From: Marinomonas communis
Lineage (GTDB): Bacteria > Pseudomonadota > Gammaproteobacteria > Pseudomonadales > Marinomonadaceae
Direction of reading: 5' to 3'
Length of the DNA: 64,000 nucleotides
Assembly (NCBI RefSeq): GCF_004363305.1
Contig: NZ_SNZA01000002.1
Location: 496,001 to 560,000 of the forward strand
Part shown: piece after piece, positions 37,477 to 60,011 of the stretch
How the letters are laid out: the number at the start of each line of letters is the position of its first letter
Numbering within the stretch: position 1 is the first letter of the stretch
Made by a program: the position numbers and the translations under genes
The notes under the pieces: model-generated
Database searches by the model: none
Told to the model about the DNA's origin: nothing
The model's input: only the letters and a program-made list of their open reading frames with translations

Positions 37477-37589
37477 TCTTAAGTCTCATCAATCCAAAGC
37501 TGGCAACTATGGACTTCTATGCCATGAGCTTGAGGCTCAATTATGTTGACATAGAATCTTCGTAAAAGAAGAAGATTACTCCCTTAAGA
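37477..37589 (-). promoter_or_regulatory. yybP-ykoY manganese riboswitch aptamer
   Basis: Read on the minus strand: P1 arms TCTTAAG and CTTAAGA at the ends, conserved loop GGGAGTA right after P1, P2 AATCTTC/GAAGATT, then P3 CTATG...CATAG whose internal loop TCAACAT faces TGG, capped by TGAGC/GCTCA. These two loop motifs are the diagnostic Mn-binding elements of the class. The downstream 70 nt form the expression platform: AAGACGA (overlapping the P1 3' arm) can pair TCGTCTT, while GGTGGGC can pair GCCCACC next to the ribosome-binding site. The two pairings exclude each other unless they form a pseudoknot. Confidence 0.92.
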
Positions 37590-56483: not shown

Positions 56484-57647
56484 TTATAAACCGGCAGCTT
56501 TACGAAGTGCGTCGGCTTTATCTGTGCGTTCCCAAGTAAAGTTCTCACCTTCGCGACCGAAGTGGCCGTAAGCCGCTGTTGGCAGGTAGATCGGACGCTT
56601 AAGGTCAAGCATCTTGATTAGGCCTGCTGGGCGAAGTTCGAAGTGTTCGCGTACTAGTTGAGAAATTAGCTCGTCACTTACTTTACCAGTACCAAATGTG
56701 TTGATACTGATAGAGGTAGGTTCAGCGACACCGATAGCGTATGACACTTGGATCTCACACTTGTCAGCAAGGCCTGCAGCAACGATGTTTTTTGCTACGT
56801 AACGACCTGCATACGCTGCAGAGCGGTCAACTTTTGATGGATCTTTACCAGAGAATGCGCCACCACCGTGACGTGCCATACCACCGTAAGTATCTACGAT
56901 GATTTTACGGCCAGTCAGACCACAGTCACCTACTGGGCCACCAATGATGAATTGGCCAGTGGGATTGATGAAGTACTTAGTGTCTTTAGACAACCACTCT
57001 TCTGGCAGAACCGGCTTGATGATTTCTTCCATCACCGCTTCGCGAAGGTCTGCTTGCTTAATCGCAGCGCTGTGCTGAGTGGAAAGTACCACAGCATCGA
57101 TAGCGCATGGCTTACCGTTTTCGTCGTAGCGGAATGTCACCTGGCTTTTCGCATCTGGACGAAGGAAGTCTAGTGTACCGTTTTTACGAACTTCTGCTTG
57201 GCGCTGTACCAAACGGTGTGAGTAAGTGATCGGTGCAGGCATTAGAACATCGGTTTCGTTGGTAGCAAAACCAAACATTAGACCTTGGTCACCAGCGCCT
57301 TGCTCTTTTGCATCCGCTTCATCGACACCAACTGCGATATCCACAGATTGTTTACCGATGGCATTAAGTACGGCGCAGGATTCCCAGTCAAAGCCCATGT
57401 CTGAGCTGTTGTAGCCAATTTCACGAATCACGCCGCGAGCGATGTCTTCGATATCAACCCAAGCATTAGTACGGACTTCACCAGCGACCAACACCATGCC
57501 AGTTTTCACAAGTGTCTCACATGCAACACGTGCTTCTGAGTCTTCTTTTAAAATGGCATCAAGGATGGCATCAGATACTTGGTCTGCGATTTTATCTGGG
57601 TGGCCTTCAGAAACCGATTCTGAAGTAAATAAAGAATATTCTGACAT
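56484..57647 (-). CDS. metK: S-adenosylmethionine synthetase
   Basis: 387 residues: [46 protein letters not shown] and the loop [19 protein letters not shown]. Makes SAM from methionine and ATP. Start ATG 57647 with GAGG 8 nt upstream; a further in-frame extension to 57692 runs into the leader terminator and is rejected. Expression appears to be set by an attenuator in its leader (57693-57749). Confidence 0.97.
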
Positions 57648-57692
57648 GTTTGTGCCTCTATAAATGTAGATTCTAGAGCGCCAAACAGGCAT

Positions 57693-57749
57693 AAAAAAAC
57701 CCGCTTAGCTGAAGGATTTGCTAAACAGGCTGTCCTGCTTCTGTTTAGC
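57693..57749 (-). promoter_or_regulatory. Transcription attenuator in the metK leader
   Basis: On the minus strand GCTAAACAG (57741-57749) can pair CTGTTTAGC (57720-57728), 9 perfect pairs with a 12-nt loop. Alternatively CCTGTTTAGC (57720-57729) pairs GCTAAGCGGG (57700-57709), 10 pairs including two G-U, followed by seven T (57693-57699), a complete terminator. The two structures share one arm, so they are mutually exclusive. The first loop contains AGGA and the second TCCT, which could form a pseudoknot. No known SAM riboswitch is recognised. Confidence 0.75.
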
Positions 57750-57962
57750 TGATTTTATATAGCGTCCGCAAGCCGAAACAAATCGACGCTGTGGTACGGA
57801 TAATGGACTAACAACGACTAAAATTCAAGCAATTAAGCGTTTAAGGTAGAGTGTTAGTGCTGCTTTTTTGCTATGATCTTTGCCATCTTTGTGCAATTTC
57901 ATTCTCTTTGCTCATTTATTGGGCGTGCATTACCCGAGGCCGTTGCAAGAACTGGGGTTAGC

Positions 57963-58010: not shown

Positions 58011-60011
58011 ATGCCGTCTCGTAAACAACTTGCTAATGCTATTCGCGTACTTAGTATGGACGCGGTTCAAAAAGCAAAATCTGGACACCCAGGCGCGCCT
58101 ATGGGCATGGCTGATATTGCAGAAGTGCTTTGGAATGACTTTCTAAAACACAACCCAACTGACGCTAAATGGGTCGACCGTGACCGTTTCGTATTGTCGA
58201 ACGGCCATGGCTCTATGTTGATTTACTCTTTGCTTCACCTTTCAGGCTACAACCTTTCTATTGAAGATCTGAAGCAATTCCGTCAACTGCACTCAAAAAC
58301 TCCTGGTCACCCTGAGTATGGTTATACGGAAGGTGTTGAAACAACGACTGGTCCTCTAGGTGCGGGTATCAGTAACGCTGTCGGTATGGCGATCGCTGAG
58401 AAAACCCTAGCAGCACAATTTAACCGTGAAGGCCACAACGTTGTTGATCACAACACATACTGCTTCCTAGGCGATGGCTGTATGATGGAAGGTATCTCAC
58501 ACGAGGCATGTTCACTAGCGGGTACGTTAGGTCTTGGTAAACTGATCGCATTCTGGGATGACAACGGCATCTCTATCGACGGTCATGTTGAAGGCTGGTT
58601 CACAGACGATACCCCAAAACGTTTTGAGTCTTACGGCTGGCACGTGATTGCTGATGTAGATGGTCACGATCCAGAAGCGATCAAAGCAGCCATCGAAGCA
58701 GCACAAGCTGAAACGTCTAAGCCAACGTTGATCTGTTGTAAAACAATCATCGGTTTTGGTTCACCAAACAAATCCGGTTCTCACGACTGTCACGGTGCGC
58801 CACTAGGTGATGAAGAAATCGCTGCAGCACGTGAATTCCTTGGTTGGAAAGAAGCACCATTTGAAATCCCTGCTGATGTTTACGAAGGTTGGGACGCGAA
58901 ATCAAAAGGTGCGTCAGCTCAAACAGAATGGGAAGCGAAATTCGAAGCTTACCAAGCGGCTTACCCAGAGCTTGCAGCAGAATTTGAACGTCGTGTAATC
59001 AAAGGCGAATTGCCAGCTGACTTCGCTGAAAAAGCGGCGGCTTACATCAAAGAGTGCCAAGAAAAAGGCGAAAACATTGCTAGCCGTAAAGCGTCTCAAA
59101 ACGCGATCGGTACGTTCGGTGCAATCTTACCTGAACTACTAGGTGGCTCAGCTGACCTTGCGGGTTCCAACCTAACTCTATGGTCTGGTTCAAAAGGCAT
59201 TCAAGAAGACCCAGCGGGCAACTACGTATTCTACGGTGTGCGTGAATTTGGTATGAGCGGCATCATGAATGGTGTGTCTCTACACGGTGGTTTCATCAAC
59301 TACGGCGCAACCTTCATGATGTTCATGGAATACGCTCGTAACGCAGTACGTATGTCGGCATTGATGGGTATTCAGAACATCTTCGTTTACACCCACGACT
59401 CTATCGGTCAAGGTGAAGACGGTCCTACTCACCAACCTGTTGAGCAACTTGCGAACCTTCGTATGACACCAAACATGTCAGTATGGCGTCCAGCAGATGC
59501 AACGGAAACAGCGGTTGCATGGGCTGCGGGTATTCAGCGTCGCTCTGGTCCAACGTCTTTGGTATTCAGCCGTCAAGGTTTGCCAGCACTTGCTCGCACT
59601 GATGCACAAGTAGCGGACATCGCCAAAGGTGGTTACGTATTGTCTGATTGTGAAGGCACTCCTGAGCTAATCCTAATTGCGACGGGCTCTGAAGTAGCGC
59701 TAGCGCTAGACTCTGCGCAAGCATTGTCAGAAAAAGGCACGAAAGTTCGTGTTGTGTCTATGCCATCTACGGATGCGTTTGATGCACAAGATGCAGCGTA
59801 CCAAGAGTCTGTACTGCCTAGCAGCGTGACGAAGCGTGTTGCGATTGAAGCGGCACACGTTGATTACTGGTACAAGTACGTTGGTTTTGGTGGTGCGATG
59901 GTGGGTATGCGCACTTTCGGTGAATCAGCACCGGGCGGCGATCTACTGAAACACTTCGGCTTCACCGTAGAGAACGTGGTAGCCACAGCAGAAAAACTGT
60001 TGAACGCCTAA
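58011..60011 (+). CDS. tkt: Transketolase
   Basis: 666 residues, thiamine-diphosphate enzyme of the pentose-phosphate pathway: [38 protein letters not shown], the ThDP motif [18 protein letters not shown] with WDDNGIS, and [20 protein letters not shown]. It starts the tkt-epd-pgk-fba cluster, but its own terminator separates it from epd. Confidence 0.98.

Follow-up and report, generated by a model that had tools for sequence, protein, structure and literature searches.

The leader of metK in Marinomonas communis raises the question of what kind of regulator stands before the gene for S-adenosylmethionine (SAM) synthetase. An earlier note on this DNA, made from the letters alone, had described a terminator that shares an arm with an antiterminator, and had placed it in no known riboswitch class. 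We analyzed the window, that is, the whole 64-kb stretch of DNA, in which metK has a divergent upstream neighbor, as noted earlier (transketolase, starting at 58011 on the + strand). The gene and the signals surrounding its start are listed below.

56484..57647, (-) strand: metK, S-adenosylmethionine synthetase, 387 aa (Pfam PF00438, PF02772, and PF02773)
57647, (-) strand: metK start ATG, 45 nt 3' of the U tract
57655..57658, (-) strand: Shine-Dalgarno (SD) GAGG, 7 nt 5' of the metK ATG (coordinates, letter check)
57800..57805, (-) strand: -10-like CATTAT, ending 9 nt 5' of helix P1
57823..57828, (-) strand: -35-like TTGAAT, 17-nt spacer to CATTAT, 8/12 consensus matches for the pair

A box starting with TTGA (44 leaders) or TTGC (4 leaders), with a 17-nt spacer and 8-9/12 matches, was the best pair before P1 in all 48 genus leaders, this being the best-scoring pair picked per leader, with no shuffle control. 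An automatic promoter scan with a stricter limit of 9/12 matches found none here, where TTGAAT/CATTAT scores 8. From this arrangement, we infer that transcription starts just 5' of P1. If used as a start, an in-frame ATG at window position 57692 (-), directly 3' of the U tract, would add 15 aa to MetK; its frame is not conserved, because species differ in how far the true start lies from the T tract (48-54 nt). Elsewhere in the window, a manganese riboswitch (yybP-ykoY, RF00080) was matched at 37491-37588 (-) with 49 bits, the gathering score being 45.

The absence of a known class did not hold up against an Rfam search, the refutation test that the earlier note itself had named. The SAM_alpha family (SAM-II, RF00521) matched window positions 57799-57724 (-) with 38.2 bits, above the gathering score of 36 (E = 4.7e-5 in the scan of the 64-kb window). 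This was the single RF00521 match in the whole 3.85-Mb genome, and none of 14 control genomes showed one. The long-loop variant of SAM-II (RF01726) reached 14.9 bits, below its gathering score of 44, which leaves the leader outside that family. The parts of the aptamer are as follows.

57737..57790, (-) strand: SAM-II aptamer core, within the RF00521 match spanning 57724-57799
57785..57790, (-) strand: P1 5' strand AGCGUC, pairing with GACGCU at 57766-57761
57761..57766, (-) strand: P1 3' strand GACGCU, pairing with the P1 5' strand
57780..57782, (-) strand: L1 UUU, read as U10-U12 of the solved SAM-II structure 2QWY, invariant in 46/46 distinct genus leaders
57768..57771, (-) strand: P2b 5' strand UUGC, read as U20 U21 G22 C23, invariant in 46/46
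57741..57749, (-) strand: segment A, GCUAAACAG, P2 3' strand and antiterminator 5' arm, in 48/48 genus leaders

According to the relevant part of PMC3764141, 13 positions of the SAM-II pocket are completely conserved, namely U10-U12, U20 U21 G22 C23, and G42-A47 in 2QWY numbering. This numbering was transferred onto the Marinomonas leader by motif, whereby the GCUAAA of segment A was read as G42-A47, the 3' side of the SAM pocket. All 13 pocket nucleotides were invariant in the 46 distinct leaders obtained from 48 Marinomonas genomes. All six P1 pairs were standard in each of these leaders (100% of cells), and the pseudoknot P2 was paired in 94.6% of cells, with seven of its ten pairs holding in all 46. 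Outer P2 pairs were lost in 15, 9, and 1 of the 46 rows (columns 24/62, 23/63, and 21/64, respectively); the 15 rows lacking one outer pair are those carrying UCUC in the loop, namely clade II and L019. The outer pseudoknot letters here are GUUUC/GAAGC, as opposed to the GC-rich Rfam consensus, and we take them as marking a putative lineage-specific P2. Relative to the RF00521 consensus, the P1 loop is short by 3 nt, the score lies only 2 bits above the cut-off, and 26 of the 48 genus members fall below it, although all 48 match at E ≤ 0.001 (22/48 over the cut-off).

The terminator with its shared antiterminator arm was borne out by letter-by-letter coordinates and shuffle tests. The segments that take part in it lie between the aptamer and metK.

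57720..57729, (-) strand: segment B, CCUGUUUAGC, terminator 5' arm (CCTGTTTAGC) and also antiterminator 3' arm, by its pairing in genus leaders
57700..57709, (-) strand: segment A', GCUAAGCGGG, terminator 3' arm (GCTAAGCGGG), by its pairing with B
57693..57699, (-) strand: terminator U tract of seven U, a T tract in 48/48 genus leaders

The terminator helix B:A' comprises 10/10 pairs, two of them G-U, around a loop of 10, with a predicted hairpin energy of -12.8 kcal/mol; its U tract ends at 57693, which agrees with the distance of about 45 nt to metK given previously. The antiterminator joins GCTAAACAG at 57749-57741 with 57728-57720 in 9 bp with zero mismatches (predicted -9.8 kcal/mol), so that A:B and B:A' are mutually exclusive helices. 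Of the region delimited in the earlier note, the arm GCTAAACAG proved to be half of the SAM-II core, whereas the limit at 57749 did not stand, the aptamer extending to about 57790. Among 2000 dinucleotide shuffles, a 9-bp antiterminator helix never arose and a 10-bp terminator helix arose five times, and the leader fold had a z-score of -2.37, with 4/200 equally stable shuffles. An automatic terminator scan reported none at the metK leader, owing to its loop limit of 8 (the loop here is 10).

Across the 46 distinct genus leaders, A:B was paired in 100% of 414 cells (nine pairs each) and B:A' in 97.2% of 460 cells, with one terminator pair broken in 12/46 rows and another in 1/46. The T tract has a C interruption in one leader (L054) and C as its first letter in another (L057). 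The check for covariation in relatives suggested in the earlier note returned conservation instead: the pairings were retained across the 48 genus genomes, but hardly vary, and changes on both sides of a pair were absent within the genus from P1, P2, the antiterminator, and the terminator alike. Within-genus covariation was dropped as proof because of this low variation. The additional pseudoknot that had been envisaged between the loops AGGA and TCCT occurred in one of 48 genus leaders, that of this window, and any four-letter complement between the two loops in 9/48.

One terminator arm can instead pair with a strand of the aptamer, as expected for SAM-II with transcription attenuation. We regard it as highly probable, on these sequence features, that the metK leader is a SAM-II riboswitch combined with a transcription-attenuation platform that is SAM-OFF on metK; this lends support to the earlier suggestion that SAM feeds back on metK through an attenuator whose arm is shared. 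In the nascent leader, P1 would form first. When SAM is plentiful, it would bind the pocket made of the P1 loop (UUU and UUGC) and GCUAAA, and would lock segment A (GCUAAACAG) in the pseudoknot P2. With A held in P2, B (CCUGUUUAGC) would be free to form the 10-bp hairpin with A' (GCUAAGCGGG) just ahead of the U tract; RNA polymerase would then stop 45 nt before metK, leaving the gene off. When SAM is scarce, A would be free to form 9 bp with B, the terminator would be prevented, and metK would be transcribed. Segment A also serves as the 3' strand of P2, and SAM binding therefore has to compete with the A:B helix. Such competition between ligand binding and the antiterminator strand is the usual wiring of an OFF switch. 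That the leader binds SAM, that transcription terminates, and that control has this direction are predictions from the aptamer match, the conserved pocket, the two exclusive pairings and their conservation, and the compensation across families described below.

Alternative readings of the leader were compared with the same data. A SAM-II aptamer could act mainly on translation, with the terminator being minor or constitutive, as for Sinorhizobium meliloti metA, whose terminator is not predicted to be SAM-responsive in the section of PMC9373788 concerned; likewise, a passage of a 2024 review places SAM-II under direct occlusion of the ribosome-binding site (RBS) (PMC10907184). The small second stem over the metK RBS, noticed earlier and present in the predicted folds, would suit such control. 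The SD lies 82 nt past A, outside P2, and A pairs without mismatch with B, which is a terminator arm, so that the terminator is wired to the aptamer; we consider a mainly translational switch improbable. A new compact class responding to SAM or methionine was suggested by the strong conserved attenuator before metK, but with an RF00521 match over the cut-off and an invariant SAM-II pocket it has become very improbable, and a new SAM riboswitch class was rejected on that match.

Terminator and antiterminator by themselves fit any attenuator, including one mediated by a protein or by the ribosome through a leader peptide, a T-box, or MetJ. In the first 100 nt from 57799, however, ATG and GTG are both lacking and TTG occurs twice, so that a leader peptide was rejected, and the Rfam search of the window found no T-box. 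MetJ control was rejected as well, since MetJ had no match in this genome (the E. coli control matched). Attenuation of this kind is the least credible of the readings, and the SAM-II riboswitch with transcription attenuation is retained in what follows.

To place the leader among other SAM-II elements, we searched related genomes. The metK start lay downstream of the aptamer in 48/48 genus leaders, and MetK matched at 87/87 genus loci (loci that overlap in part). The family-level search returned the same 48 genomes as the genus search, and a DNA pattern derived from the aptamer matched 38 contigs, all from Marinomonas except one from Maribrevibacterium harenarium. At E ≤ 0.001, matches were found in 43/390 genomes of the order (18 of them of this genus; 16 over the cut-off), 118/369 of the class (31 over the cut-off), and 84/398 of the phylum (70 over the cut-off). 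The 69 class loci examined, which are part of about 133 places outside the own genome, stand before a Cys/Met PLP enzyme (metZ-like; 50), metK (6), metF (3), metN (1), or unclassified genes (9). These target groups were named by Pfam on one 70-aa fragment per group, and metN is our reading of the ABC ATPase target. Eight of the 31 order loci outside the genus were without the motif; the other 23 comprised 11 metN, 5 metA, 2 metZ-like, and 5 other targets, and none of the 31 stood before metK. The idea that metK is a target unique to Marinomonas was dropped in view of the six class cases, which belong to four gammaproteobacterial families (three cases in f222 and one each in f251, f176, and f201). 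Among SAM-II targets, metK is thus in the minority, and it also occurs outside Marinomonas.

Next, the A:B pairing was examined outside the genus. Of 82 outside loci given, 21 were dropped (no motif or T tract), and 40 class loci lay outside the sample. In 25 of the remaining 61 loci, the pairing of A with a segment 5' of the T tract exceeded that in shuffles (p < 0.05), which made 18/24 families positive when any locus at p < 0.05 was counted as sufficient; f87, f90, f222, f246, f37, and f175 had no such locus. In f87 and f90, which belong to this phylum but not to the class, a GGCCGG stretch located more to the 3' side seems by eye to be used likewise. Among 25 distinct outside cases, which were picked by a pairing score of at least 5.5 and are hence biased towards pairing, position 7 of A was G-C in 20, as opposed to C-G in 12/12 genus cases, and position 8 was C-G in 12, as opposed to A-U in 12/12 genus cases, and not a standard pair in 10. 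The predicted attenuator layout, with compensatory changes, is one that recurs in other gammaproteobacterial SAM-II leaders.

The outside metK leaders (f222, f251, f176, and f201) share with Marinomonas both the aptamer and the gene. By eye, the f251 leader (L233) reads as the same A-B-A' layout, whereas A:B pairing was not above chance in f222, and the f176 leader (L216) has no run of five T before metK. Other leaders showed features of their own. Six loci of family f8 in the order (L069, L070, L071, L073, L076, and L078) gave weak RF00521 matches of 27.7-31.4 bits directly 5' of related genes for proteins of 173-181 aa, for example MNKRISLTIDGQSVSG in L071, for which no Pfam match was found at E ≤ 0.01. 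In the f8 leaders, the likely SD and the P2 3' strand share nucleotides, an arrangement resembling that of a translational SAM-II- or SAM-V-like switch. In L042 and L169, a second SAM-II-like string (GCCGATTTAAGC..AACTTG..) 3' of the first suggests tandem aptamers.

One feature distinguishes the Marinomonas leader from all six outside metK leaders, in which it was absent by eye.

57680..57689, (-) strand: segment B', CCUGUUUGGC, second copy of B 3' of the U tract, in 48/48 genus leaders

In this leader, B' and A' can form a 10-bp helix, a length equaled in 9/2000 shuffles. Among 84 terminator-like hairpins in 464 kb of this genome, that of the metK leader was the sole one in which 6 nt or more of the 5' arm recur at that place; with swapped tails, at least one such repeat occurred in 548/1000 runs (6 nt) and 138/1000 runs (7 nt), so that a single 5'-arm repeat is not rare by itself. 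The string [AG]TGCC follows 6/84 of the hairpins. Two A':B' pairs changed on both sides in the genus, a result also reached by 93/500 shuffles. Only the conservation of B' speaks for a role.

Such a role might be a relay A-B-A'-B'-RBS that couples transcriptional and translational control in one leader, which we regard as rather unlikely. Without SAM, A:B would form, A' would be free for B', and the RBS would be released; with SAM, B:A' would stop transcription, and the free B' of read-through RNA would help to close the RBS. Pairing of B' with the SD region 3' of it exceeded that in shuffles (p < 0.05) in 12/14 distinct leaders of clade II and in only 2/32 of clade I, which holds the window. 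The mean cost of opening the RBS was 5.8 kcal/mol with A', 6.5 with shuffled A', and 9.4 without A' in clade I, and 5.6, 6.9, and 9.1 kcal/mol, respectively, in clade II; the cost with A' was thus only slightly lower than that with shuffled A', and this control took most of the effect. SD unpairedness barely changed (means 0.08 to 0.13 in clade I and 0.24 to 0.25 in clade II). Because of this small change and the shuffled-A' and swapped-tail controls, the relay to translation was not adopted as the main model. In most leaders of clade II (15/48 leaders, e.g., L063), the SD falls within CAGCTAAAGAGGA, which closely copies the SAM-II P2 3' strand; the UCUC of the P1 loop could pair with its GAGG, and a distant pseudoknot with the SD can be envisaged as an alternative.

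The switch class itself is already known; its target gene and host group here are little described. SAM-II has been described in alphaproteobacteria with few cases elsewhere, many with terminators (in the relevant part of PMC1273637), and passages of PMC2258182 and PMC2704228 state its presence in Gammaproteobacteria. As characterized in PMC2258182, it is the only aptamer that in alpha- and betaproteobacteria appears mostly together with terminators; descriptions of terminator-bearing SAM-II thus exist in passages of PMC1273637, PMC2258182, and PMC9373788. A close likeness is the S. meliloti metZ leader, predicted in PMC9373788 to end transcription and yielding the sRNA RZ: it has in common with the Marinomonas leader the aptamer family, P1 and pseudoknot P2, the conserved pocket, the downstream terminator, and the predicted OFF logic. 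The Marinomonas leader differs from S. meliloti SAM-II in its target, metK rather than metZ or metA, in its gammaproteobacterial host, in its P1 loop, shorter than that of the Rfam consensus, and in the second copy of the terminator 5' arm 3' of the U tract. In Rhodobacterales, a SAM-binding aptamer likewise precedes metK, namely the SAM/SAH riboswitch RF01727 (as reported in part of PMC2864571), which had no match in the Marinomonas leader at the gathering score or at E ≤ 5. Among open-licence full texts, no paper was found that describes a SAM-II element preceding metK in this genus.

A survey of about 200 proteobacterial genomes, as summarized in PMC4239095, whose main text does not contain the word Marinomonas, found SAM_alpha only in Rhizobiales and Rhodobacterales; by comparison with that statement, SAM-II is common in the Gammaproteobacteria sampled here. 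That the P2 3' strand recurrently doubles as an antiterminator arm provides a simple testable rule for terminator-bearing SAM-II switches, in contrast to the filing of SAM-II under RBS occlusion in the cited passage of the 2024 review (PMC10907184). For Marinomonas, the leader shows how a genus with no detectable MetJ (one member examined) could feed SAM back on metK.
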